From NCBI GenBank assembly GCA_037893245.1, contig JBAIAA010000671.1, positions 1-64,000 of the forward strand: a stretch of DNA of 64,000 bases, in the 5' to 3' direction. Below, one piece after another: positions 40,401 to 64,000 of the stretch. Below the pieces are notes generated by a model, which was not told the DNA's origin, searched no databases, and saw only the letters and a program-made list of their open reading frames with translations. This DNA comes from Crossaster papposus (lineage: Eukaryota > Echinodermata > Asteroidea > Velatida > Solasteridae). The position numbers and the translations under genes were made by a program. Position 1 is the stretch's first letter, and every line of letters starts with the position of its first letter.

Positions 40401-41042
40401 ATAAATCTCAACTAGGGTATATCAATCTCAACCAGGGTATATCAATCTCAACCAGGGTATATCAATCTCAACCAGGGTATATCAATCTCAACCAGGGTAT
40501 ATCAATCTCAACCAGGGTATATCAATCTCAACCAGGGTATATCAATCTCAACCAGGGTATATCAATCTCAACCAGGGTATATCAATCTCAACCAGGGTAT
40601 ATCAATCTCAACCAGGGTATATCAATCTCAACCAGGGTATATCAATCTCAACCAGGGTATATCAATCTCAACCAGGGTATATCAATCTCAACCAGGGTAT
40701 ATCAATCTCAACCAGGGTATATCAATCTCAACCAGGGTATATCAATCTCGACCAGGGTATATCAATCTCGACCAGGGTATATCAATCTCAACCAGGGTAT
40801 ATCAATCTCAACCAGGGTATATCAATCTCAACCAGGGTATATAAATCTCAACCAGGGTACATCAATCTCAACCAGGGTATATCAATCTCAACCAGGGTAT
40901 ATCAATCTCAACCAGGGTATATCAATCTCAACCAGGGTATATCAATCTCAACCAGGGTATATCAATCTCAACCAGGGTATATCTCAACCAGGGTACACAT
41001 ATCAATCTTAACCAGAGTATATCAATCTCAACCAGGATATAT
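40401..41042. repeat. 20-bp minisatellite, ~32 copies
   Basis: Unit ATCAATCTCAACCAGGGTAT, perfectly phased at 20 bp from about 40421 to 40980 with rare substitutions (CTCG, ATAA, GTAC), then four irregular units. Because 20 is not a multiple of 3 and the unit has no stop in one register, a 20-residue periodic frame stays open through it; I regard that frame as incidental. Confidence 0.97.
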
Positions 41043-45522: not shown

Positions 45523-46970
45523 GGCGACAGGGGGGGGGGGGGTTCGAGAGTTCGGGAAAGTGATGAGGAAGCGTTGGTTCTGATAATTCAAACGCGCTTC
45601 GGGTGTTGGTGTGAACTGGGAGATTCCTTACACTGTATTTACATGTAGATGTACATACGCAGCACGGCAGTAGTGTTCGCTTTAACCACGTATGAAACCA
45701 ATATGGCAGTCCAATCCTGTTGTATCTGTCATCTCAACGAACCTGTGTGAAAAGAAAACAAATGAGCATTCTGCTTTCCTCAAGTTTCGCCTCATGAAAA
45801 TAGAATGCTCTTTTAGTTAAATGGTTTGTGTGTAATAAATTATCTTTGTTGACTTTGAATGAATTTTAAGAAAATGCATACAATGGTTTTTACTAATCGA
45901 ACTGTAGATAAAAACATTGATTAGTCCTTACACTTATTTCTCGCAACCATTCTTAGAAAACTTAAGACATTTTGTCCCATCCCGTATATTAATATTTTCT
46001 ATACATTATCCTTGCCTCATCTTGACCTTCAATATGGTATATACTTGCTTGGGGAAATACTCACAAAACCTATCTTGATAGGTTGCTCGTTATTCAAAAG
46101 TAATCCTTAACCCATTCCTATATTTTGTATTTATTATAATACATGAATATTAGATTAACTAGTGCTTTTAAGTTTTATATACTGGCTGGAAATGGAATGA
46201 CCTAAAAAATATAATAAAATATTTCGATATTATTAACAATAACATACATAATCATACAGTTCAGAGACAAAATGATACGTTATCCCATCCTTGCCTCACC
46301 TCATAAAACCTACCTTGATAGGTTGCTCGTTATTCAAAAGAAAGAAGTACCATTCAAATATCAGCAATAAACAAAAATATCCTGACGTTTGACTAAATAA
46401 GTTTGTCCTTCACAGTCTGAGTCATCATGCATGCCACGCACGAAATAACCTGCTGGAGCTGTACGGTCTTTGGTAATACCGCCCTCTTGTGACAAGCACT
46501 GAGTGTTGGTCTGGCTCCCTGACTTGACAATACCAAGAAGTTTAATAATAGTCAAAAATGTTTTGCGCATGCGTTGTGTCGTAGCAACAATTTTTAGCAT
46601 CAACTTGTCATTAATTTTGTCAAGAAGATCATCGGCGTAGCCGTAGGCCCAAATAAAAAATGTTTCTGGAGATTTTATTTTTACCTAGTCCAGAGCCTTA
46701 ACGTTAATAATATATAGTTAGCCCTACAAATGAATGTTTGTGAGTGCGATATGCAGGTGAAGATTGATCCCCACTCGCGGTCGGGCATCACCTGACTGAA
46801 CCTAGCCGCGTTCTCAGCCGCGTTCTCCAGCCGCGGTCTCAGCCGCGGTTTCAGCCGCGTTCTCAGCCGCGGTTTCCAAATCTCAAATGGATAGAGTAAA
46901 GGGTGGTCAAAACTGTGTTTTTTTATTTCAGGAGTTCTGAGACTATGGCAACGAAATTTTTCATTTTGCA
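45523..46970. other. Intergenic between SYS1 and satellite array
   Basis: SYS1 promoter side. Holds a duplicated AAACCTA.CTTGATAGGTTG segment (about 46066 and 46304) and a 12-13-bp minisatellite at 46804-46876. No gene recognised; short minus-strand frames here have no features. Confidence 0.5.
46804..46876. repeat. AGCCGCG minisatellite, 12-13-bp period
   Basis: AGCCGCG recurs at 46804, 46816, 46829, 46841, 46853 and 46865 with TTCTC or GTCTC/GTTTC spacers. CpG-rich, about 100 bp left of the satellite array, and so possibly part of the same terminal structure. Confidence 0.85.
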
Positions 46971-46974
46971 TAAA

Positions 46975-49900
46975 AATAATTTGTATTTTACGGTGTAATC
47001 TATCTTATCCATCTCTTTGGCAGAACAAATTTTGGAGGGAGCCAATTCGGTCCACTAATTAGGTCTTAATTAAAAGTCTAATGAGGAAGCTCAGTTTTCC
47101 ACTCAAAAAGTGCATAAAAATGAATACGGCTGACACTAAGACCACTTTAAAAGTAAATGTACACCACATAGTTGCACAAATGTGCATTTTTATTACATAA
47201 TCCGTTTTATGTATCCTTTAGGCAGAGCAAATTTTGGAGGGGGCCGATTCGGTCCACTAATGAGGTCTTAATTATAAGTCTAATGAGGAAGCTCAGTTTT
47301 CCACTCAAAAAGTGCATAAAAATGAATACGGCTGACAATAAGACCACTTTAAAAGTAAATGTACACCACATAGTTTCACAAATGTTCATTTTTATAACAT
47401 AATCCCTTTTATCCATCTCTTAGGCAGATCTAATTTTGGAGGGGGTCAATTCGGTCGACTAATTAGGTTTTAATTAAAGGCCTAATGAGGAAGGTTCAGT
47501 TTCCTCTCTAAAATGCAGACAAATGAATACGGCTGACACTAAGACCACTTTAAAAGTAAATGTACACCACATAGTTTCACAAATGTTCATTTTTATAACA
47601 TAATCCCTTTTATCCATCTCTTAGGCAGATCTAATTTTGGAGGGGGTCAATTCGGTCGACTAATTAGGTTTTAATTAAAGGCCTTATGAGGAAGGTTCAG
47701 TTTCCTCTCTAAAATGCAGACAAATGAATACGGCTGACACTAAGATCACTTTAAAAGTAAATGTACACCACATAGTTTCACAAATGTTCATTTTTATTAC
47801 ATAATCCCTTTTATCCATCTCTTAGGCAGATCTAATTTTGGAGGGGGTCAATTCGGTCGACTAATTAGGTTTTAATTAAAGGCCTAATGAGGAAGGTTCA
47901 GTTTCCTCTCTAAAATGCAGACAAATGAATACGGCTGACACTAAGACCACTTTAAAAGTAAATGTACACCACATAGTTTCACAAATGTTCATTTTTATTA
48001 CATAATCCGTTTTATTCACCCTTTAGGCAGATCTAATTTTGGAGGGGGCCAATTCGGTCCACTAATTAGGTCTTAATTAAAGACCTAATGAGAAGGTTCA
48101 GTTTCCTCTCTAAAATGCAGACAAATGAATACGGCTGACACTAAGATCACTTTAAAAGTAAATGTACACCACATAGTTTCACAAATGTGCATTTTTATTA
48201 CATAATCCGTTTTATGTATCCTTTAGGCAGAGCAAATTTTGGAGGGGGCCGATTCGGTCCACTAATGAGGTCTTAATTATAAGTCTAATGAGGAAGCTCA
48301 GTTTTCCACTCAAAAAGTGCATAAAAATGAATACGGCTGACACTAAGACCACTTTAAAAGTAAATGTACACCACATAGTTGCACAAATGTGCATTTTTAT
48401 TACATAATCCGTTTTATGTATCCTTTAGGCAGAGCAAATTTTGGAGGGGGCCAATTCGGTCCACTAATGAGGTCTTAATTATAAGTCTAATGAGGAAGCT
48501 CAGTTTTCCACTCAAAAAGTGCATAAAAATGAATACGGCTGACACTAAGACCACTTTAAAAGTAAATGTACACCACATAGTTTCACAAATGTTCATTTTT
48601 ATTACATAATCCGTTTTATTCACCCTTTAGGCAGATCTAATTTTTTTTGGGGGCCGATTCGGTCCACTAATTAGGTCTTAATTAAAGACCTAATGAGAAG
48701 GTTCAGTTTCCTCTCTAAAATGCAGACAAATGAATACGGCTGACAATAAGACCACTTTAAAAGTAAATGTACACCACATAGTTTCACAAATGTTCATTTT
48801 TATTACATAATCCCTTTTATCCATCTCTTAGGCAGATCTAATTTTGGAGGGGGTCAATTCGGTCGACTAATTAGGTTTTAATTAAAGGCCTAATGAGGAA
48901 GGTTCAGTTTCCTCTCTAAAATGCAGACAAATGAATACGGCTGACACTAAGACCACTTTAAAAGTAAATGTACACCACATAGTTTCACAAATGTTCATTT
49001 TTATTACATAATCCCTTTTATCCATCTCTTAGGCAGATCTAATTTTGGAGGGGGTCAATTCGGTCGACTAATTAGGTTTTAATTAAAGGCCTAATGAGAA
49101 GGTTCAGTTTCCTCTCTAAAATGCAGACAAATGAATACGGCTGACACTAAGATCACTTTAAAAGTAAATGTACACCACATAGTTTCACAAATGTGCATTT
49201 TTATTACACAATCCATTTTATGTATCCTTTAGGCAGATCTAATTTTGGAGGGGGTCAATTCGGTCGACTAATTAGGTTTTAATTAAAGGCCTAATGAGGA
49301 AGGTTCAGTTTCCTCTCTAAAATGCAGACAAATGAATACGGCTGACACTAAGATCACTTTAAAAGTAAATGTACACCACATAGTTGCACAAATGTGCATT
49401 TTTATTACATAATCCGTTTTATGTATCCTTTAGGCAGAGCAAATTTTGGAGGGGGCCGATTCGGTCCACTAATGAGGTCTTAATTATAAGTCTAATGAGG
49501 AAGCTCAGTTTTCCACTCAAAAAGTGCATAAAAATGAATACGGCTGACAATAAGACCACTTTAAAAGTAAATGTACACCACATAGTTTCACAAATGTTCA
49601 TTTTTATAACATAATCCCTTTTATCCATCTCTTAGGCAGATCTAATTTTGGAGGGGGTCAATTCGGTCGACTAATTAGGTTTTAATTAAAGGCCTAATGA
49701 GGAAGGTTCAGTTTCCTCTCTAAAATGCAGACAAATGAATACGGCTGACACTAAGACCACTTTAAAAGTAAATGTACACCACATAGTTTCACAAATGTTC
49801 ATTTTTATAACATAATCCCTTTTATCCATCTCTTAGGCAGATCTAATTTTGGAGGGGGTCAATTCGGTCGACTAATTAGGTTTTAATTAAAGGCCTAATG

Positions 49901-52900
49901 AGGAAGGTTCAGTTTCCTCTCTAAAATGCAGACAATACGGCTGACACTAAGATCACTTTAAAAGTAAATGTACACCACATAGTTTCACAAATGTTCATTT
50001 TTATTACATAATCCCTTTTATCCATCTCTTAGGCAGATCTAATTTTGGAGGGGGTCAATTCGGTCGACTAATTAGGTTTTAATTAAAGGCCTAATGAGGA
50101 AGGTTCAGTTTCCTCTCTAAAATGCAGACAAATGAATACGGCTGACACTAAGACCACTTTAAAAGTAAATGTACACCACATAGTTTCACAAATGTTCATT
50201 TTTATTACATAATCCCTTTTATCCATCTCTTAGGCAGATCTAATTTTGGAGGGGGTCAATTCGGTCGACTAATTAGGTTTTAATTAAAGGCCTAATGAGA
50301 AGGTTCAGTTTCCTCTCTAAAATGCAGACAAATGAATACGGCTGACACTAAGATCACTTTAAAAGTAAATGTACACCACATAGTTTCACAAATGTGCATT
50401 TTTATTACACAATCCATTTTATGTATCCTTTAGGCAGATCTAATTTTGGAGGGGGTCAATTCGGTCGACTAATTAGGTTTTAATTAAAGGCCTAATGAGG
50501 AAGGTTCAGTTTCCTCTCTAAAATGCAGACAAATGAATACGGCTGACACTAAGATCACTTTAAAAGTAAATGTACACCACATAGTTGCACAAATGTGCAT
50601 TTTTATTACATAATCCGTTTTATGTATCCTTTAGGCAGAGCAAATTTTGGAGGGGGCCGATTCGGTCCACTAATGAGGTCTTAATTATAAGTCTAATGAG
50701 GAAGCTCAGTTTTCCACTCAAAAAGTGCATAAAAATGAATACGGCTGACAATAAGACCACTTTAAAAGTAAATGTACACCACATAGTTTCACAAATGTTC
50801 ATTTTTATAACATAATCCCTTTTATCCATCTCTTAGGCAGATCTAATTTTGGAGGGGGTCAATTCGGTCGACTAATTAGGTTTTAATTAAAGGCCTAATG
50901 AGGAAGGTTCAGTTTCCTCTCTAAAATGCAGACAAATGAATACGGCTGACACTAAGACCACTTTAAAAGTAAATGTACACCACATAGTTTCACAAATGTT
51001 CATTTTTATAACATAATCCCTTTTATCCATCTCTTAGGCAGATCTAATTTTGGAGGGGGTCAATTCGGTCGACTAATTAGGTTTTAATTAAAGGCCTTAT
51101 GAGGAAGGTTCAGTTTCCTCTCTAAAATGCAGACAAATGAATACGGCTGACACTAAGATCACTTTAAAAGTAAATGTACACCACATAGTTTCACAAATGT
51201 TCATTTTTATTACATAATCCCTTTTATCCATCTCTTAGGCAGATCTAATTTTGGAGGGGGTCAATTCGGTCGACTAATTAGGTTTTAATTAAAGGCCTAA
51301 TGAGGAAGGTTCAGTTTCCTCTCTAAAATGCAGACAAATGAATACGGCTGACACTAAGACCACTTTAAAAGTAAATGTACACCACATAGTTTCACAAATG
51401 TTCATTTTTATTACATAATCCGTTTTATTCACCCTTTAGGCAGATCTAATTTTGGAGGGGGCCAATTCGGTCCACTAATTAGGTCTTAATTAAAGACCTA
51501 ATGAGAAGGTTCAGTTTCCTCTCTAAAATGCAGACAAATGAATACGGCTGACACTAAGATCACTTTAAAAGTAAATGTACACCACATAGTTTCACAAATG
51601 TGCATTTTTATTACATAATCCGTTTTATGTATCCTTTAGGCAGAGCAAATTTTGGAGGGGGCCGATTCGGTCCACTAATGAGGTCTTAATTATAAGTCTA
51701 ATGAGGAAGCTCAGTTTTCCACTCAAAAAGTGCATAAAAATGAATACGGCTGACACTAAGACCACTTTAAAAGTAAATGTACACCACATAGTTGCACAAA
51801 TGTGCATTTTTATTACATAATCCGTTTTATGTATCCTTTAGGCAGAGCAAATTTTGGAGGGGGCCAATTCGGTCCACTAATGAGGTCTTAATTATAAGTC
51901 TAATGAGGAAGCTCAGTTTTCCACTCAAAAAGTGCATAAAAATGAATACGGCTGACACTAAGACCACTTTAAAAGTAAATGTACACCACATAGTTTCACA
52001 AATGTTCATTTTTATTACATAATCCGTTTTATTCACCCTTTAGGCAGATCTAATTTTTTTGGGGGGCCGATTCGGTCCACTAATTAGGTCTTAATTAAAG
52101 ACCTAATGAGAAGGTTCAGTTTCCTCTCTAAAATGCAGACAAATGAATACGGCTGACAATAAGACCACTTTAAAAGTAAATGTACACCACATAGTTTCAC
52201 AAATGTTCATTTTTATTACATAATCCCTTTTATCCATCTCTTAGGCAGATCTAATTTTGGAGGGGGTCAATTCGGTCGACTAATTAGGTTTTAATTAAAG
52301 GCCTAATGAGGAAGGTTCAGTTTCCTCTCTAAAATGCAGACAAATGAATACGGCTGACACTAAGACCACTTTAAAAGTAAATGTACACCACATAGTTTCA
52401 CAAATGTTCATTTTTATTACATAATCCCTTTTATCCATCTCTTAGGCAGATCTAATTTTGGAGGGGGTCAATTCGGTCGACTAATTAGGTTTTAATTAAA
52501 GGCCTAATGAGAAGGTTCAGTTTCCTCTCTAAAATGCAGACAAATGAATACGGCTGACACTAAGATCACTTTAAAAGTAAATGTACACCACATAGTTTCA
52601 CAAATGTGCATTTTTATTACACAATCCATTTTATGTATCCTTTAGGCAGAGCAAATTTTGGAGGGGGCCGATTCGGTCCACTAATGAGGTCTTAATTATA
52701 AGTCTAATGAGGAAGCTCAGTTTTCCACTCAAAAAGTGCATAAAAATGAATACGGCTGACACTAAGACCACTTTAAAAGTAAATGTACACCACATAGTTG
52801 CACAAATGTGCATTTTTATTACATAATCCGTTTTATGTATCCTTTAGGCAGAGCAAATTTTGGAGGGGGCCAATTCGGTCCACTAATGAGGTCTTAATTA

Positions 52901-55900
52901 TAAGTCTAATGAGGAAGCTCAGTTTTCCACTCAAAAAGTGCATAAAAATGAATACGGCTGACACTAAGACCACTTTAAAAGTAAATGTACACCACATAGT
53001 TTCACAAATGTTCATTTTTATTACATAATCCGTTTTATTCACCCTTTAGGCAGATCTAATTTTTTTTGGGGGCCGATTCGGTCCACTAATTAGGTCTTAA
53101 TTAAAGACCTAATGAGAAGGTTCAGTTTCCTCTCTAAAATGCAGACAAATGAATACGGCTGACAATAAGACCACTTTAAAAGTAAATGTACACCACATAG
53201 TTTCACAAATGTTCATTTTTATTACATAATCCCTTTTATCCATCTCTTAGGCAGATCTAATTTTGGAGGGGGTCAATTCGGTCGACTAATTAGGTTTTAA
53301 TTAAAGGCCTAATGAGGAAGGTTCAGTTTCCTCTCTAAAATGCAGACAAATGAATACGGCTGACACTAAGACCACTTTAAAAGTAAATGTACACCACATA
53401 GTTTCACAAATGTTCATTTTTATTACATAATCCCTTTTATCCATCTCTTAGGCAGATCTAATTTTGGAGGGGGTCAATTCGGTCGACTAATTAGGTTTTA
53501 ATTAAAGGCCTAATGAGAAGGTTCAGTTTCCTCTCTAAAATGCAGACAAATGAATACGGCTGACACTAAGATCACTTTAAAAGTAAATGTACACCACATA
53601 GTTTCACAAATGTGCATTTTTATTACACAATCCATTTTATGTATCCTTTAGGCAGATCTAATTTTGGAGGGGGTCAATTCGGTCGACTAATTAGGTTTTA
53701 ATTAAAGGCCTAATGAGGAAGGTTCAGTTTCCTCTCTAAAATGCAGACAAATGAATACGGCTGACACTAAGATCACTTTAAAAGTAAATGTACACCACAT
53801 AGTTGCACAAATGTGCATTTTTATTACATAATCCGTTTTATGTATCCTTTAGGCAGAGCAAATTTTGGAGGGGGCCGATTCGGTCCACTAATGAGGTCTT
53901 AATTATAAGTCTAATGAGGAAGCTCAGTTTTCCACTCAAAAAGTGCATAAAAATGAATACGGCTGACAATAAGACCACTTTAAAAGTAAATGTACACCAC
54001 ATAGTTTCACAAATGTTCATTTTTATAACATAATCCCTTTTATCCATCTCTTAGGCAGATCTAATTTTGGAGGGGGTCAATTCGGTCGACTAATTAGGTT
54101 TTAATTAAAGGCCTAATGAGGAAGGTTCAGTTTCCTCTCTAAAATGCAGACAAATGAATACGGCTGACACTAAGACCACTTTAAAAGTAAATGTACACCA
54201 CATAGTTTCACAAATGTTCATTTTTATAACATAATCCCTTTTATCCATCTCTTAGGCAGATCTAATTTTGGAGGGGGTCAATTCGGTCGACTAATTAGGT
54301 TTTAATTAAAGGCCTTATGAGGAAGGTTCAGTTTCCTCTCTAAAATGCAGACAAATGAATACGGCTGACACTAAGATCACTTTAAAAGTAAATGTACACC
54401 ACATAGTTTCACAAATGTTCATTTTTATTACATAATCCCTTTTATCCATCTCTTAGGCAGATCTAATTTTGGAGGGGGTCAATTCGGTCGACTAATTAGG
54501 TTTTAATTAAAGGCCTAATGAGGAAGGTTCAGTTTCCTCTCTAAAATGCAGACAAATGAATACGGCTGACACTAAGACCACTTTAAAAGTAAATGTACAC
54601 CACATAGTTTCACAAATGTTCATTTTTATTACATAATCCGTTTTATTCACCCTTTAGGCAGATCTAATTTTGGAGGGGGCCAATTCGGTCCACTAATTAG
54701 GTCTTAATTAAAGACCTAATGAGAAGGTTCAGTTTCCTCTCTAAAATGCAGACAAATGAATACGGCTGACACTAAGATCACTTTAAAAGTAAATGTACAC
54801 CACATAGTTTCACAAATGTGCATTTTTATTACATAATCCGTTTTATGTATCCTTTAGGCAGAGCAAATTTTGGAGGGGGCCGATTCGGTCCACTAATGAG
54901 GTCTTAATTATAAGTCTAATGAGGAAGCTCAGTTTTCCACTCAAAAAGTGCATAAAAATGAATACGGCTGACACTAAGACCACTTTAAAAGTAAATGTAC
55001 ACCACATAGTTGCACAAATGTGCATTTTTATTACATAATCCGTTTTATGTATCCTTTAGGCAGAGCAAATTTTGGAGGGGGCCAATTCGGTCCACTAATG
55101 AGGTCTTAATTATAAGTCTAATGAGGAAGCTCAGTTTTCCACTCAAAAAGTGCATAAAAATGAATACGGCTGACACTAAGACCACTTTAAAAGTAAATGT
55201 ACACCACATAGTTTCACAAATGTTCATTTTTATTACATAATCCGTTTTATTCACCCTTTAGGCAGATCTAATTTTTTTGGGGGGCCGATTCGGTCCACTA
55301 ATTAGGTCTTAATTAAAGACCTAATGAGAAGGTTCAGTTTCCTCTCTAAAATGCAGACAAATGAATACGGCTGACAATAAGACCACTTTAAAAGTAAATG
55401 TACACCACATAGTTTCACAAATGTTCATTTTTATTACATAATCCCTTTTATCCATCTCTTAGGCAGATCTAATTTTGGAGGGGGTCAATTCGGTCGACTA
55501 ATTAGGTTTTAATTAAAGGCCTAATGAGGAAGGTTCAGTTTCCTCTCTAAAATGCAGACAAATGAATACGGCTGACACTAAGACCACTTTAAAAGTAAAT
55601 GTACACCACATAGTTTCACAAATGTTCATTTTTATTACATAATCCCTTTTATCCATCTCTTAGGCAGATCTAATTTTGGAGGGGGTCAATTCGGTCGACT
55701 AATTAGGTTTTAATTAAAGGCCTAATGAGAAGGTTCAGTTTCCTCTCTAAAATGCAGACAAATGAATACGGCTGACACTAAGATCACTTTAAAAGTAAAT
55801 GTACACCACATAGTTTCACAAATGTGCATTTTTATTACACAATCCATTTTATGTATCCTTTAGGCAGATCTAATTTTGGAGGGGGTCAATTCGGTCGACT

Positions 55901-56795
55901 AATTAGGTTTTAATTAAAGGCCTAATGAGGAAGGTTCAGTTTCCTCTCTAAAATGCAGACAAATGAATACGGCTGACACTAAGATCACTTTAAAAGTAAA
56001 TGTACACCACATAGTTGCACAAATGTGCATTTTTATTACATAATCCGTTTTATGTATCCTTTAGGCAGAGCAAATTTTGGAGGGGGCCGATTCGGTCCAC
56101 TAATGAGGTCTTAATTATAAGTCTAATGAGGAAGCTCAGTTTTCCACTCAAAAAGTGCATAAAAATGAATACGGCTGACAATAAGACCACTTTAAAAGTA
56201 AATGTACACCACATAGTTTCACAAATGTTCATTTTTATAACATAATCCCTTTTATCCATCTCTTAGGCAGATCTAATTTTGGAGGGGGTCAATTCGGTCG
56301 ACTAATTAGGTTTTAATTAAAGGCCTAATGAGGAAGGTTCAGTTTCCTCTCTAAAATGCAGACAAATGAATACGGCTGACACTAAGACCACTTTAAAAGT
56401 AAATGTACACCACATAGTTTCACAAATGTTCATTTTTATAACATAATCCCTTTTATCCATCTCTTAGGCAGATCTAATTTTGGAGGGGGTCAATTCGGTC
56501 GACTAATTAGGTTTTAATTAAAGGCCTAATGAGGAAGGTTCAGTTTCCTCTCTAAAATGCAGACAATACGGCTGACACTAAGATCACTTTAAAAGTAAAT
56601 GTACACCACATAGTTTCACAAATGTTCATTTTTATTACATAATCCCTTTTATCCATCTCTTAGGCAGATCTAATTTTGGAGGGGGTCAATTCGGTCGACT
56701 AATTAGGTTTTAATTAAAGGCCTAATGAGGAAGGTTCAGTTTCCTCTCTAAAATGCAGACAAATGAATACGGCTGACACTAAGACCACTTTAAAA
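46975..56795. repeat. ~201-bp satellite array with 5-mer/6-mer higher-order units
   Basis: About 49 direct monomers of 200-202 bp. Two main types: one with GGCAGAGCAAATTTTGGAGG plus CTCAAAAAGTGCATAAAAATG, one with GGCAGATCTAATTTTGGAGG plus CAATTCGGTCGACTAATTAG. The variant GTTGCACAAATG marks unit starts at about 47172, 48379, 49384, 50585, 51792, 52798, 53803, 55010 and 56015, i.e. spacings 1207, 1005, 1201, 1207, 1006, 1005, 1207, 1005 bp (six- and five-monomer units). Diagnostic variants (CCTTATGAGG; a run of 7-8 T before GGGG; GACAATACGG lacking 6 bp at 49931 and 56562) give unit order A B C A B B A B C, the last truncated. The leftmost monomer is diverged. The right end falls inside the transposase-like frame. 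The open 69/76-aa frames repeated in it are by-products. Confidence 0.97.
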
Positions 56796-59572
56796 TCATC
56801 TCCCAATTTATCTTTATCACTGTTTTCAATTTGGCATTTCAGTTTTTGATAGTGATGTCTCACTAAGTCCGTTGCGAATTTCGAGTATGTAATGAATGTC
56901 AAGGATTCTACAATCGCGTCGATGTCTTTCATATTACTTGCCTGTAAAAGCAATCCGATCCAATACATCGCATCGCGAAAATTCTGAGGATAATACCGGC
57001 GGCATTTTCTGGAGGCGTTTTTCATGAAGTGACTTGCACAACAATGTACAATTGTCTTCTTGAAATCTTTGTCTGTGGCAGAACCCGTCACGATACTGTA
57101 ACACCGATTTAGGTATTCTGTTACAGTCTCACAGTTAAAAGCTTTTAAACTTGCCAACAAAAGTGTCGAGCTGCCGTCAATCATCAACAAAAGAGGTGGT
57201 TTAACGCCATTGTGACCGTAAAGGGTTTGTTCCGAATGTAAAAAACACTGTAAAAAAAAACTGATTACAACCGAGTTGTGATCTGTTGTAAGAAAAGAGG
57301 CAAGCACGTACGGAGGATTACCCTTTTCTGGGTGACGAACCACGAGGTCATATAATTGGTATTTCTTGTTGGGAGAAAATGTTGAATTATTCCTGACAAT
57401 TGATCCAGTAGCATCAAAATATAGGATATCCCTCTGTGATAGTTGATGATACACTCTGACGCTTTCTTGTGAGTATAAAATAACATAGGGGGGATGCAAA
57501 CTAACCTGTCGTAAAATGCCTGGAAACTTCTTGCTTGAATCAGATTGCTTATGAATAATGTCAAGAAGGATCTTTATCTCACTTTCACTTGAATTAGAAA
57601 GTCTCTTAGATTCGCTCGAAATTTTATGTAAAACCTCTTTTTTTGGAGCTCTGTCCCGACAACCTGAGAGAAACTCAGTATCACCTAACGATTTAAGGTT
57701 GTCCAAGTGCTCTCGCCTTGTTTTTTTGTACTTGAGGACCTCTTTCAGAGCTTCGCGCTGTGTGTTTCGGACAAACCTTGCCCGACGTTCATTTTTGTTG
57801 TGTTTAACATTTCCAGTAAAAGCAACATGAACTTTCAAATTGATTTCCGTTTCCATTGTTAATTTAAATTTTACAGTACAGTGATTGAAATTACAATACC
57901 CACTGGCACTAAAGGCGTTTTTGGAAGGCTTTCTACCTGAATTAGAGGAAACATAATGGCGCCTAAACTGGAATGAACAATAGGGGTGCAGTGTCTTTAA
58001 ACCTTTAATAAAAATATGAATCCATGGCTTTGGAAATGTACATCCTTTCTGTTGTTTCTTAAGAATCTTCCACTCTGATCTATCAACGTAGAAGAAACTT
58101 TTTTGTGTTTTAGGCAATTGAACTGTCCAGAATTTTGGAAATGTGTTGGTACTGGCGTCATCAGCTTCTGTGCACATATCTAGAATAACATTGTCTGGTA
58201 AAATTTTGTCCCCCTTTTCACCAGATGTAGTTGATGATTTTTGTTCAGCCATTCCTGAAAAATCTATGTCACTTGTAACAATTTTTGAAGATTTATATGA
58301 GTTGCTTGTTTTCATGTCTGGCAATTGGACAGATTTTTCTGAAAAATTTGATAAGGATGCATCCATTCGTACATTGTCACTAATGGCACTATTTATGGAA
58401 TGATGGTCATCATTACAACTTGAAGTTCGCAACGACGGAGCTTGTTTTTGTGGCGAGCTAGTGGGTGATATGTTTGGCTTAATATCTATAGAAGATAAAT
58501 CACCAAAATCAAAAGAATTTTCTATAAAATCTGTAGAATTGTCATCAATCCAATTTTTGACTTTTGAGTGGGGATTTGTCACAGGCAAGTTTGTCGTCCG
58601 TTGTTGGTTGTTAATATTACCCCGTTTTTCATTTAAAAAAGAACGTTCTGTGACTGTATTGTGTATGAACACCCTTTCGCCCTCATTGCAACCATTAAGG
58701 CCACACTTGAATGTAACATCATCCATGTAAGATTTACATTGATTTTCAGGTTCAAGATCGATACATAAATAGTGGTACCAGGTATTACAATTATCACACG
58801 CAATCATACTTCTTGAATCGTGGTGGGGTTGACGACAAATGCAATATAATGTTTCAGACATAGAGCCGGTTGAGCAGTGTGTGGAAACCTTGATTGAATT
58901 TGTATGAGTGATTGTTGAATTAGAATAATCTTTGGATATTACATTCCTGAAATCTTCTTTAGATCCTGGTGTTGACATTGGGATCGGTTCATCATTAGGA
59001 CATGTTGTTTGTTCAGACAATGAACACATTGACGGGGCTAATTGTCCAGATATTGGAGCCTTCGTTGTCGCTGGCCCAGACTGTGAACATGTTGCAGATG
59101 GGGGTTTAGACTTTGAAGTACACGATTGTGTTTGGATATTTGGTCCTGGCCTTGAAGGACATGATTGTTGGTCATGTCCAGAATTGGGATCGGTTGCTTT
59201 GACCGATTTGGAATCATTCTGCGACACATTTATCGGCTCGGACTGGTTGTTAGGTTTGGTATTTTTGGTTTTGTTACGAAACAACTGGCGAACCTTTTCT
59301 CTAAACTCTTGACGGTTGTTTCTCCACATGATCAGAATCCTTTGCTTACATTTTTGGGTTTTCATTTTCCTACGTAAATTTAACATACTTGTTTCAGATA
59401 TCCATATGTACTCGTCATCAAGCGGGTATTCTTCTAACGTTTCGACCAAAACGCTGGCAATCCTGGACACCTTTTCACCTCCCCTTACCCTTTTTCTTCC
59501 CCCTCCGGTGTCGTTGTTGTGATGGGTCGATTTCTGTAACAGATTTAAAAATGATTCTCTTGCATTGCACAT
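56714..59572 (-). CDS. PHD-finger DDE/MULE-like transposase, 3' end fused to satellite
   Basis: One exon, 952 aa from the ATG at 59572. Numbered from that ATG: a basic N-terminal region, a Ser/Pro/Thr-rich linker, a complete C4HC3 PHD finger (C244, C246, C259, C262, H267, C270, C290, C295), a low-complexity spacer, a Cys-containing region (GYCNFNHC ~558-565), then an RNaseH-like core with YFDATGS (D720), LLLMIDGSS (D799) and a C..H motif in VHCCASHF (~843-848). This order (PHD, first D, second D, CxxH) recalls MULE-superfamily transposases, especially Rehavkus-type elements, by memory of the family. The third acidic residue expected further downstream is not identifiable. The last ~27 codons lie in the satellite (to 56795), so the protein is probably C-terminally truncated. 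Alternative: a domesticated or different DDE family with PHD. Minus strand like the adjacent SGNH gene. Confidence 0.65.
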   Translation of the reverse strand: MCNARESFLNLLQKSTHHNNDTGGGRKRVRGGEKVSRIASVLVETLEEYPLDDEYIWISETSMLNLRRKMKTQKCKQRILIMWRNNRQEFREKVRQLFRNKTKNTKPNNQSEPINVSQNDSKSVKATDPNSGHDQQSCPSRPGPNIQTQSCTSKSKPPSATCSQSGPATTKAPISGQLAPSMCSLSEQTTCPNDEPIPMSTPGSKEDFRNVISKDYSNSTITHTNSIKVSTHCSTGSMSETLYCICRQPHHDSRSMIACDNCNTWYHYLCIDLEPENQCKSYMDDVTFKCGLNGCNEGERVFIHNTVTERSFLNEKRGNINNQQRTTNLPVTNPHSKVKNWIDDNSTDFIENSFDFGDLSSIDIKPNISPTSSPQKQAPSLRTSSCNDDHHSINSAISDNVRMDASLSNFSEKSVQLPDMKTSNSYKSSKIVTSDIDFSGMAEQKSSTTSGEKGDKILPDNVILDMCTEADDASTNTFPKFWTVQLPKTQKSFFYVDRSEWKILKKQQKGCTFPKPWIHIFIKGLKTLHPYCSFQFRRHYVSSNSGRKPSKNAFSASGYCNFNHCTVKFKLTMETEINLKVHVAFTGNVKHNKNERRARFVRNTQREALKEVLKYKKTRREHLDNLKSLGDTEFLSGCRDRAPKKEVLHKISSESKRLSNSSESEIKILLDIIHKQSDSSKKFPGILRQVSLHPPYVILYSQESVRVYHQLSQRDILYFDATGSIVRNNSTFSPNKKYQLYDLVVRHPEKGNPPYVLASFLTTDHNSVVISFFLQCFLHSEQTLYGHNGVKPPLLLMIDGSSTLLLASLKAFNCETVTEYLNRCYSIVTGSATDKDFKKTIVHCCASHFMKNASRKCRRYYPQNFRDAMYWIGLLLQASNMKDIDAIVESLTFITYSKFATDLVRHHYQKLKCQIENSDKDKLGDDFKVVLVSAVFICLHFREETEPSSLGL

Positions 59573-60524
59573 TATTTTCAATTGGCAGGATCGTTGACCT
59601 ATCCCTCACAAAAATCCATACAAAAGAAGAACAGAACCGAATTTCAAGACGTGAGTCATCGCCGTTATCAATTAATGATAGGCCTATGTGTATTGTTATG
59701 TACATATTTTCCATGTTAGTCTCTTCTGTGTTCATAGGTGATTACTAAGAAATGCTAAACTGTTTTTAATAGCAGCCCAAGTTTCTATAAACAAAAACTA
59801 CCAACCAATATTTGTTTAATAGGGGTGGAACAACGACTTCACAAAATGATACTTATCCACCCACTTTAGATACGTGTTTCCGCCAATGTTATTGTATATA
59901 GGCCTATATATAAAAAAGAAATAAACAAATAGAAAGGACTACATTTTTTATGGTATTTTGGTTGTACAAAAAATTAGCCATTGCCGACGGTGTTTATTTT
60001 GAAAACTGCCTTTACAAAGTGGAGGTGTATACATTTTCCCTATAGTATTGTCCGTTGAAAAAATATATTTACTAGATTATAGAACAGCCGTTGTTTGGGG
60101 AAGAAGCTACATAGTATAACATACCTTATACATGGCTGCGTTTGAATATGGAAGAGCATATGTCACTGTACTCAAGCAACTGGCACCAAGACCCGTCATC
60201 AGTGGTTTGTTTCTATTGTTACAAAAGTGTTAGAAAATTCATTAATCAAGCACGATTAGATTACGTCATGGATAATGTCAACAATGACGACGAGGAGTAT
60301 AACAGTGGACATAATTACTGGGTATACCTCGATAGTTATCTTTATGCCAAAGTTACAATGAATATTATCTCCGTTGGTTAACGCACCATTATACTAATAA
60401 TAATATCCCTCAACGGTTAAAATTAAACCGTTATGTTCCTTTCTTTTAATGTCTGGGTATCAATTGGGTTTGTAATGAATAGTTACTGGTTATGACCGTA
60501 GCACCTTCATGAACAAGACGTTAC
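59573..60524. other. Between transposase start and SGNH gene end; nothing recognised
   Basis: Would contain the promoter of the transposase-like gene. A + strand frame at about 60151-60381 (starting MEEHMSLYSSNW) has two cysteines in VVCFYCY but no recognisable domain. No TIR or satellite-like sequence was found here. Confidence 0.4.
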
Positions 60525-62882
60525 TTACTCCAAATATCCAGAGCATTTCCGATGGTACTGCTGTGCTGCTTCCATTGTAGGCGTACATCGACGACTAGCA
60601 CGGCTTCTTTTCGGGCCACCCTCAGTTTCCAGGACTAGATTTTTAATGTGAATCTTTTTAGATTTCGCAGTTTTATCTAAAGATTAAAAAGATTAAGTAA
60701 GTGATTTACTACGTCATCGATGGTGTTTAAACCAATAATAACATATATATACATAGAACCTGACACGTGGCTTTGCAGCACAGATCAGGTCATGACCTTC
60801 TTCCTGTGTTTTGGAGTGAAGGTGGACTGTTCAAAAGCCGTTAAACAAGGATAAACGAATAGTAAATCCCATTTACCATAGGCGAATGTGACTGTTTTGA
60901 ACTTCGGCGTAATGGAAGTAACAATACATGTCATGTGATGTGAATTCCGCCAATTTAAAAACCATGATATTTATGTCAATTATTTAATAAGATAACATCT
61001 GTGTCAAATTTCAAAAGGATCCAGAAAAAAGAAATTGATCTTGAGTCTGACTTTGAGTTTTAGCTTGAGCAGTGACTCCATAGGAACTTATGTTCATTTA
61101 TTTAATGCACATAGACTCAAAAGCGCAAACTCATTAAAGCACCTAAAGCCAAAAGGTTTTTGTTCTGATCATTGAACAAAACAGAAAAGTATTCTATGGG
61201 CAGCATATTTGCATAATATTTGGTGATTATGGATAAAATATTATTTGTCATTTCAATTAACAAAATGTGAACGATATATCAAATTAGGGAAAAGGAGAGC
61301 GAAACTTTCTAGTCACGTCATACGTACGTCATTCCATTGTTCTCGTTCACGCGCTAGTTTTTCAAAAAGCTTAGACATGTTAATTCAATCGTCGTACTTA
61401 TCGACAGGACACACCACGCCACCGATAAACCAATAGCCCCCAGTGTCCAATAGCCCCCCCCCCCCCCCCTTTACCCCACTCACCAACACAGACCTTCTGT
61501 AGAAGGGCCTATTGGCATGGATAATTACAAGAGAGCATAGTAAGGAGGGAAAACGGCCAATGTTAATCAATTTGTAGAATATTTTTCCCTTTCTTCTTGC
61601 ATACCATACACCCCCCCCCCCCCCCCATTAAAAAAAAAACCAATTCACCTTTGATTGATGCTGGATGCCTTGCTGATGTTTTCTGGCTGCTGTGCTGTGG
61701 TGGTGGCAGCGGCGGTGAGTATGGTGGTGACGGTGGTGGTGATGACAACACTTTACCCACTGCCTCTTGCAACAGCTCAATGAGCAATGGTGCGCCATCG
61801 GTGTCGCTCAGGTGTATGCCATCCACACACCATAGCCATTTCTTTCTTTCTTGAAACTCATCGCCTACATCGATGTAATTGATGTTTTTTTGCTTGCACA
61901 AGATGTGCATCATGTTATTATACCTGGCCACCGATGCCCCAAATCTGTCTAACCGTGGCAGTATTGATAACATGACAATCTGAAACACCAAAGGAACATA
62001 ACATATAATAATTATGACAAAAAACATAAGGTATTTTGTTAATGTCTTTTTTCTTCAAGCTTTTGTTGGAATGTATCGTGTGCAATAATAAACTTATAGA
62101 CATTAAATTCACATTTTGGTGGGCCGTACATACTTTGCTGTTTCGGTGAATCTCAGTCGCAGAGTCAAGCATGCGATCTAAATCTCTACGGGTTGACTCA
62201 AAGCTGCAATTCAAGCTGGATACGTTATTTGTTCCAACCGAAAATAAGATGACTTCCGGTTCAGTGCCTACATTGTTGCGTCTTATTTCCTGTAGAAAGG
62301 GACACAATTATCTAAGAATTTTTTGGGGAATCTATGATTTATTTTCCAGGGGATAGAGAGGGGAAGTGGCCAGGCCTTAAAGCAAAAGCAATAAAAGAAA
62401 AAACTCCTGATTCAGATGGGGGGGGGGGGGGGGGGGGGGGGGGGCATTACCTTGACAGAAGTTTTGACCCGGAAAAGGACTGATTTATAGTGTTGCCGAA
62501 TGGACCTGGTTTGAGAATTTAAACACACCCAACCTTTGTATGAGACTGGTAAAAGAAAAGGGAAAGGCTCAAAGCGTCAATCCCCATATAATTACCTCAC
62601 CTAAACGTAAATTCATGCTTGTTTGTACACTAACCCTCACAAAATTGGCGCCGTAGGCCTACATCGCCCTTATTCCATTACCAATAATTATTGCCTATTC
62701 AGACTTACCCTGTGTATATCTTGGATCCTTGCCCCTGGTGTGCAGCTTATTCCCAACCGGAAACACTGCCCATCATCATTGAGATCTACGTGTCCATCAA
62801 CCATGGATCTCCATTGGGAATCTCCGTAAACCATTGCAAACTGTTTGACAAAACAATCATTAACCAATGGCAGCTGAGACAT
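60525..62882 (-). CDS. SGNH (GDSL-like) hydrolase with Pro-rich linker and basic tail
   Basis: Four exons in phase (0, 0, 1): 62882-62709, 62289-62134, 61979-61649, 60676-60525; 270 aa. Catalytic blocks seen: block I VYGDSQW (Ser22), block III SVGTNN (G77, N79), block V DGIHLSD (D163, H166), so the SGNH set looks complete. After the domain comes a Pro-rich stretch (SSPPPSPPYSPPLPPP, ~187-202) and a Lys/Arg-rich C-terminus. No signal peptide, so probably intracellular. SGNH enzymes are esterases/lipases/deacetylases; the substrate is not predictable. Related short SGNH domains occur in some mobile elements, and this gene sits upstream of a transposase-like ORF on the same strand. Intron 1 has a 27-G run (62418-62444). 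The stop codon overlaps a consensus donor (GGA/GTAAGT), so an alternative 3' exon is possible; the 5' end could also have an extra exon. Confidence 0.75.
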
Positions 62883-64000
62883 TTTCAAGCAAAAACTGTC
62901 TTTCTTGAACTACTTTCTTTTTTTAAAGTGGTATTTAGTGTTTTTGTATTTAGTTTTTACCTTAAAAACAACCACTAAATTTCACTCTTTTTGAATTGAT
63001 TTTTGTTCATCTTGTAAACAGTCACTTCAAAGGTTAATAATCAAGACGTTAATTGTAATCACAAACTGAGTGCCAAAGCAGGTGAAAATATAGCTTGTAT
63101 TAATATAACACAGGAATATGTAGGGGGGAGGGGGGATTAAGGCAATTAACTCCTATTATTGTCCCAAAGTCATCACTTGGTGGCACGTTCAATTTGTACA
63201 GTTTGTTAATTTAATTCATACAGTTCAATTACTATGCCTAGGCTATATGCCGTGCTACTGCCGTGCCGGATTCAAATAATTAGACTGTTATTAGTTTGGC
63301 GCAGCAATAGCACGTCGTTTAGAACCAATTCGGCTCGGCAAATTAATTTGGCACAGCAAAGCCCTCTAGCTCGACAGGGCCTGCCGCGCTATCGGTGCTC
63401 GGAACGGCAGTGGCGTGGCGCCAATTACGAACGACGTTTAGTGCAACGCTGTGCTATTGCCGCGCTATTGCTGCACTCGGCACGGTAGTAGCACGGCGTA
63501 TAGCCTATAGTCCTAACAGGCCAACAGTGATTTATCGTCGTTCCAATCAGTAAAACAAATTTAAGTAGGCCTACAACTACCGAGTTATACAGCCCACGAC
63601 GGGTAACGCATTAATAACACTGGTTAAGACAATTAGAACTTGCACGTAATTAGGACATGGCTAAAAATACAGCGCGAACAGCGTGTGTGGTTTTGAGCAG
63701 GGGTGGTGCTCAATTAAGCTGATCTTTAATTGTTTTTATTGGTCGGTCATTGAGTATAATATAGTCAGCGGTGAAACGTAATAACACGGTCATTCTCAAA
63801 ATATAGATTATCGGACTAGTAGTTGCGTATAGAGTGATTTTACCAAAGGCTTTTCAGGAATTGTACATTAAGTATAGCCTATAGGTTGGAACTGTCCCCG
63901 GACTGATCGGGTTTTGTTTAAGCCCAACTGTACTGAAACACAGTCCGTACCGGCTTTGTGCGGTTAATGCGGGAGTCTGCGCTCGACCTACTGCCCTTTT
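62883..64000. other. Intergenic flank with one MITE
   Basis: Upstream side of the SGNH gene. Apart from the TIR element 63239-63507 nothing is recognised; no further exon could be assigned. Confidence 0.5.
63239..63507. mobile_element. MITE-like element with ~30-bp TIRs
   Basis: The left end TAGGCTATATGCCGTGCTAC continues as TGCCGTGCCG. It is matched inverted by the right end CGGCACGGTAGTAGCACGGC followed by GTATAGCCTA, with two mismatches. The 269-bp interior is built of GCTATTGCCGCGC/AGCACG-type repeats and is GC-rich compared with its flanks. No clear target-site duplication. Confidence 0.75.

Follow-up and report, generated by a model that had tools for sequence, protein, structure and literature searches.

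A very large DNA transposon, probably Rehavkus/Mutator-like, with satellite arms and an SGNH hydrolase gene in Crossaster papposus

Rehavkus elements offer the comparison for a transposon found in Crossaster papposus, in a 64,000-bp stretch of contig JBAIAA010000671.1 (C671:1-64000, hereafter the window; other contigs of the 1.02-Gb genome are abbreviated likewise). In the available parts of the literature, on which all comparisons with published elements below are based, Rehavkus is tabulated with 9-bp target-site duplications, terminal inverted repeats of 26-400 bp, one open reading frame (ORF), a PHD finger and a minisatellite, and with Arthropoda and Annelida as hosts (PMC6446971), while Rehavkus-1_TC of Tribolium has, at a length of 9.5 kb, inverted termini with mostly five and eight monomers of 164 bp (PMC10218199). 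Ulp1 accompanies Mutator-type transposases in hydra, lancelet and plants; Ginger1 transposases bear a C-terminal Ulp1 or OTU domain, one of them with a PHD finger, in elements of 2.6-7.1 kb; and a C19 hydrolase is found with another transposase, the idea having been put forward that hydrolysis of ubiquitin or SUMO acts in transposition (all PMC2836005). Esterases have been described from the transposons CR1, RTEX and Penelope (PMC3905857) and from a Helitron (PMC4021074).

At the present locus an array of 201-bp monomers, a transposase and an SGNH hydrolase very probably form one very large Rehavkus/Mutator-like cut-and-paste DNA transposon, with several related copies in the genome. That the array, the frame with PHD finger and DDE region, and the SGNH gene are parts of a single DNA transposon is practically certain.

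Layout and copies of the element

The transposon spans C671:46790-71180 (24,391 bp) and extends beyond the end of the window. From the outside inwards it consists of a 9-bp duplication, a 215-bp terminal inverted repeat, inverted satellite arms, and an SGNH gene and a transposase gene on one strand. Its parts are as follows.

46781..46789, strand not applicable: left copy of the 9-bp target-site duplication TCGGGCATC; right copy at C671:71181-71189, beyond the window
46790..47004, plus strand: left terminal inverted repeat, 215 bp; right partner at C671:70966-71180
47005..56795, plus strand: left arm, tandem array of about 49 copies of the 201-bp monomer (Tandem Repeats Finder)
56714..59605, minus strand: truncated transposase frame, 936 element codons to 56795, then array DNA (ORF, copy alignment)
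56796..58132, minus strand: N-terminal part of the RNase-H-like DDE region with DATG, MIDGS and CxxH (alignment, model); the remainder, including the candidate third acidic residue, is missing
58739..58843, minus strand: PHD finger PF00628, frame residues 254-288 (Pfam)
61563..61979, minus strand: SGNH hydrolase exon 3 (DGIH) to the stop codon, with a low-complexity tail (splice structure, Pfam)
62134..62289, minus strand: SGNH hydrolase exon 2 (GTNN; splice structure, Pfam)
62709..62882, minus strand: SGNH hydrolase exon 1 (GDSQ; splice structure, Pfam)
62883..64000, strand not applicable: further internal element DNA, running on to C671:66099 and followed by right arm, terminal repeat and duplication
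C671:66100-70965, inverted: right arm of the same 201-bp monomer, 25 monomer matches, outside the window

The 9-bp direct repeat is perfect and lies directly outside both terminal repeats, which start with ACCTGACTGAACC and are identical at 214 of 215 positions. In the left array, Tandem Repeats Finder gave a period of 201 bp with 48.7 copies and 93% matches. A sequence-only reading of the locus had picked out a tandem array, a PHD-finger/DDE-like frame and an SGNH gene, and repeat finding, ORF analysis, Pfam and exon structure established that all three are real; the frame does run into the array, whose DNA makes up its last ~27 codons, and the SGNH gene does lie upstream of it on the minus strand, at about 2 kb from SGNH stop to frame start instead of the supposed distance of under 1 kb. 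The single large element then proposed is larger than thought, its right part lying past the window, and the 952-aa ORF taken for the transposase has the PHD finger and the N-terminal part of the DDE region and is the truncated remnant of a longer frame, without USP and Ulp1. The array was rightly seen as a terminal or subterminal repeat block, the inverted arms being placed just inside the 215-bp terminal repeats, and the inverted monomer array envisaged to the right of 62.9 kb is the right arm listed above.

DNA relatives of the SGNH gene were found by genome search on C364, C584, C96 and C493 (97-99% identity) and on C762 and C693 (92-96%), and six of these seven loci, the window's included and C693 left out, were compared as copies. 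Array, transposase and SGNH occur together in further copies, as the sequence-only reading had supposed. Two inverted arms were present in five of the six large loci (C671, C96, C584, C364 and C762), and the sixth, C493, reaches a contig end; the left ends of the C364 and C762 copies lie outside the compared DNA. The 9-bp duplications, which the sequence-only reading had likewise envisaged at the outer borders, were perfect in all three full-length copies with both ends (TCGGGCATC, AGACTCGAC and TTGCTGATG). C601 holds a 4,803-bp deletion derivative in which the terminal repeats and the two arms remain but the coding DNA is reduced to 1,542 bp from the 3' part; its duplication matches at 8/9 positions. 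Thus terminal repeats and 9-bp duplications enclose both arms in all four both-ended copies, this derivative included.

The C96 copy has identical terminal repeats (215/215), and fusing its two flanks across a single duplication copy gives a sequence that matches C365 twice over 320/320 bases, as well as four more places at 93-98% and one at 71%. Since the joined flanks match several genomic places, the insertion went into one of the members of a repeat, and the empty target together with the identical terminal repeats suggests recent movement.

Linkage of the SGNH gene to the transposase was assessed across the genome. The search with SGNH exon 3 gave 35 matches, of which three second matches were merged (one on C217, two on C17) to leave 32 loci, while the transposase search scored 49 of 533 candidates and gave 61 matches, a lower bound; 41 of the 61 were compared, the other 20 being further pieces at or near these. 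In 23 of the 32 SGNH loci a transposase match, from a set that holds at least these, lay less than 20 kb away, always on the same strand (23/23), with SGNH upstream in 22 and downstream in one, against a chance expectation of about 0.05 loci (41 x 40 kb / 1.023 Gb x 32). SGNH had been read as cargo or accessory; it is a gene of the element and, rather than one-off cargo or a loose passenger, a recurrent partner of the transposase across diverged families.

Three side observations concern these copies. Monomer arms start at almost equal coordinates of two contigs, C601:664664 and C774:664701, which may be haplotypes of one locus. The C364 copy holds an insertion of ~4.5 kb with reverse-transcriptase-like frames and 119-bp inverted ends, which we take to be Penelope-like. 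Between C762 and C96 the 5' internal part is 84-86% identical and the coding part 96-97%, possibly reflecting a mosaic or relaxed non-coding DNA.

A composite transposase and its relation to Rehavkus

The window frame (56714-59605, minus strand) has 963 codons from stop to stop, and its PHD finger scores 26 bits against the PF00628 cut-off of 24. Compared with C96, the C671 copy is without the last 2,942 bp of the internal region, a stretch that codes USP and Ulp1 parts. Without the DDE end, USP and Ulp1, the window copy would depend for its movement on protein supplied by other copies. An open frame of 1,807 codons is found in C96 and C364, while the C584 and C762 frames are interrupted. The complete frame has the order PHD finger, RNase-H-like DDE region, UCH/USP and Ulp1, with Pfam matches to UCH (PF00443, E 1.7e-22) and to Peptidase_C48, that is Ulp1 (PF02902, E 1.2e-5, above cut-off). 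The PHD finger is above the PF00628 cut-off in C671, C360, C7 and C489, and slightly below it in C96 (23.6 against 24).

Other families carry single frames of 2,024 codons (C7) and 2,088 codons (C360), with UCH at E 8.6e-28 and 1e-26, respectively, by Pfam. C7 has the domain order of C96 and an Ulp1 match above the Pfam cut-off (E 3.7e-9). In C360 Pfam reports PHD and UCH; Ulp1 goes without a Pfam report, yet could be aligned with its key residues kept. The C489 frame breaks inside USP, and Ulp1-like sequence follows downstream in other frames. In the USP alignment (four sequences from three families) Cys27, His259, Asn276, Asp277 and Cys134, 137, 178 and 181 are invariant, as are His162, Asp179, Gln233, Gln234 and Cys240 in the Ulp1 alignment (three sequences). 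These positions we take, from USP and SENP enzymes, to be the catalytic and zinc sites. The USP profile matches USP8 and USP2 (best E 1.8e-16), and the Ulp1 profile SENP1 (E 3.7e-8). Both domains are likely to be enzymatically active. For the PHD finger, the closest solved relatives are those of DIDO1, BPTF and PHF2/PHF8, which read H3K4me3.

The transposase core and the proteases are under purifying selection. Between C96 and C762 the ratio of non-synonymous to synonymous substitution rates (dN/dS) is 0.078 for the DDE region, 0.10 for the linker and USP start, and 0.25 for the USP end and Ulp1. As a side observation, the N-terminal parts of the transposases hold family-specific in-frame tandem repeats of 147 bp x 12.3, 21 bp x 35.5 and 129 bp x 3.2, at L028 6545-8353, L031 6421-7166 and L030 7194-7607 (stretches of family copies), and the C360 transposase has its PHD finger twice.

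Ulp1 is shared with the Ulp1-bearing Mutator-like elements, and here USP, Ulp1 and PHD are combined in one polypeptide and joined by SGNH and satellite arms. With Ginger1 the element shares a protease domain placed C-terminally on the transposase, whereas Ginger1 has an integrase-type core and small elements, with no satellite arms mentioned in the available text. The Rehavkus likeness proposed by the sequence-only reading holds, by published description, for the 9-bp duplication (8-11 bp being expected of Mutator-like elements, MULEs), the terminal repeat length of 215 bp, the PHD finger and the satellite monomers in inverted termini; inverted arms are found in the five large loci and C601, with the sixth at a contig end, and in the second family described below. 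The element could on these grounds be a plain Rehavkus member, with SGNH and the proteases already covered by unpublished or Repbase-only entries. However, Rehavkus is tabulated with one ORF, with neither protease nor SGNH and with arthropod and annelid hosts (PMC6446971), while the present host is an echinoderm; USP, Ulp1 and SGNH go unmentioned in the available parts of the Rehavkus descriptions, a comparison by description and not by sequence. Rehavkus-1_TC is 9.5 kb long with mostly five and eight monomers, as against 24 kb and 13 to 49 monomers per arm here (five two-armed loci). Moreover, no published account joining transposon, USP-type hydrolase, Ulp1, PHD and Mutator was found in the literature covered, which lay outside Repbase reports and most subscription papers. 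We consider this explanation unlikely, if the strongest of the alternatives.

The DDE core and points against the assignment

In the core alignment (11 sequences, numbered after the first) D240, D319 and H368 are invariant, and position 365 is Cys in 10/11 and Asp in a remote C92 sequence, giving C/DxxH. A first core model of 679 residues was poor, with a predicted local distance difference test score (pLDDT) of 54; a trimmed model reached pLDDT 74 and a predicted template-modelling (TM) score of 0.76, and its strand order is RNase-H-like. The top three PDB matches of the trimmed model were all ISCth4 chains (E 2.9e-3 to 5.5e-3, probability 0.92-0.99, TM 0.18-0.30), and chains of Argonaute, integrase, Metnase and Hermes ranked behind them; the top five of the first, poorer model were likewise all ISCth4. 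The top BFVD match was the bracovirus protein O92526 (E 1.3e-6), and Phantom MULEs occur in bracovirus-type viruses. Ichnovirus is listed in a published transposon table (PMC6446971). The Pfam scan gave no match to integrase-core families in the transposase at E<=1, and two peptide patterns each found no core relatives in IMG/VR and GTDB genomes. Separately, C92:304301-306300 holds the remote core relative, 27% identical, in a 588-codon frame with DATG kept and DxxH for CxxH; it may represent another family or a domesticated gene.

Several observations weigh against a mobile, Mutator-like element with SGNH as its partner. Nine of the 32 SGNH loci and 18 of the 41 transposase matches are unpaired; among the former, C493 and C1021 are close to a contig end on the side where the transposase would lie, C377, C553 and C897 are contigs without a match in the transposase search (itself a lower bound), and four weak loci on C17 lie 55-70 kb from a transposase. 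The joined flanks of C671 and C584 found no match in the empty-site search, so that one of the three insertions tested has an empty site, and the empty site of C96 consists of paralogous target copies, not an allele. The PHD-bearing N-terminal part has a dN/dS of 0.56 between C96 and C762, that is, weak constraint. With regard to the core, no PDB match is found at E<=0.001 and the TM values quoted above are weak; the Pfam MULE family PF10551 has no match in the transposase at E<=1, and its 79 matches elsewhere in the genome include none at the listed transposase matches.

The missing Pfam MULE match and the weak fold scores would fit a core from another DDE superfamily with similar ends. Such a core is nevertheless improbable, as ISCth4, a member of the IS256 family described as MULE-like and bearing C/DxxH (PMC7780238), is the top PDB fold for each model, as CxxH is kept in 10/11 sequences with DxxH in the eleventh, and as the 9-bp duplications and long terminal repeats fit Mutator. 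On alignment and model, the core is thus probably Mutator-like.

SGNH partner, satellite arms and possible roles

The SGNH gene has three exons separated by GT..AG introns, and its spliced product (190 aa without the tail) matches PF13472 (E 1.3e-11, above cut-off). Its best PDB sequence match is the ZfL2-1 ORF1 esterase (4c1b, E 4.9e-5). As esterases are also known from CR1, RTEX, Penelope and a Helitron, the gene might derive from a nested long interspersed nuclear element (LINE), Penelope-like element or Helitron and be a mere neighbour. This is very improbable because of the introns and the placement of the gene: three coding blocks are kept in the C360 family too, and 22 of the 23 paired loci maintain strand and side relative to the transposase; next to the C671 gene no reverse transcriptase was noted, though no dedicated search for one was run. 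While a transposon-borne SGNH is shared with the LINE ZfL2-1, in the present case it is encoded by a spliced gene of its own within a DNA transposon. The finding links an SGNH esterase, a kind of protein described in LINEs and a Helitron, with a DNA transposon that has it as a recurrent partner.

A second family repeats the layout with another monomer. At C360 a 415-bp monomer, in 27.5 copies or more, follows the transposase 3' end, with the right arm at 777475-781553 (minus), and at C245 inverted 415-bp arms (464405-467648 plus, 490731-495126 minus) have SGNH and transposase between them; a single arm is seen at C643 and at C311. All four loci have a core with 47-49% identity to the C96 core. 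The account of this family covers its arms and genes; weaker or partial 415-bp matches on C97, C167, C1079, C288 and others were left out of the comparison. The 415-bp unit is a diverged dimer, and neither the 201-bp and 415-bp monomers nor the terminal repeat and the 201-bp monomer show likeness above shuffles. Non-coding arrays were not seen in an 8-kb stretch of C7 and a 16-kb stretch of C489. The C762 arms are 98.6% alike between arms, the same as within each, and 90-93% alike to other elements' arms, so inverted arms can evolve together, which is not clearly visible in the other elements. The C671 left arm has a higher-order period of ~5.5 or 11 monomers.

Among the matches listed (395 in total), 201-bp monomers also lie on C738, C774, C531, C344, C1443, C649 and C259; the assignment of arrays to elements covers the copies compared, not these arrays. 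Among the arrays looked at, neither monomer arrays unlinked to the transposase nor a single-copy host SGNH gene came to light. Although such monomers, together with pieces resembling the 415-bp unit on C97, C167 and others, are what a host satellite array beside an unrelated transposon would leave, a chance pile-up of the three features is barely conceivable, and is ruled out for the copies examined by the terminal repeats and 9-bp duplications around the arms in the four both-ended copies, with the order of parts recurring and the second family repeating the layout.

In the Rehavkus/Mutator-like transposon favoured here, the DDE core would cut at the terminal repeats and insert with a 9-bp stagger, and the PHD finger would read histone H3 tails and so steer insertion. 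For USP and Ulp1 the substrates could be ubiquitin- and SUMO-tagged chromatin or repair factors in the vicinity, or the transposase molecule, and removal of the tags may shield the element from silencing or turnover, although use of the proteases against silencing is offered tentatively. The arms might serve as expandable blocks of sub-terminal sites or spacers, and the esterase as an accessory protein; these roles of arms, proteases and esterase are inferred. It is conceivable, if somewhat doubtful, that the elements make up a hitherto unreported group of giant DNA transposons of animals, in which a histone-reading transposase is combined with deubiquitinase and deSUMOylase, a conserved esterase partner and functional, rapidly replaced inverted satellite arms, and which counters silencing at the level of ubiquitin and SUMO and may seed host satellites.

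Long satellite arrays are here anatomical parts of a transposon, and arms inside a transposon, with an unrelated monomer in a sister family, provide a concrete route for the origin and spread of satellites. As the transposase polypeptide includes both proteases and purifying selection acts on them, the idea that ubiquitin/SUMO hydrolysis acts in transposition (PMC2836005) becomes directly testable.

Three further observations were made in the assembly and the window. By visual reading, COX1 on the 16.3-kb contig C1841 has AAA in six positions, five of which align with Asn in bovine COX1, and its AGA and TGA codons fit Ser and Trp; this points to translation table 9, common to echinoderms and flatworms. 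C8 (5,301,754 bp; stretch C8:5207163-5211509) has COX1-family frames without stops at two places, one of them in a 682-codon frame, and is probably a bacterial chromosome in the assembly, from a symbiont or contaminant. At 40404-41042 of the window, 32 repeats of a 20-bp unit overlap a frame of 232 codons.

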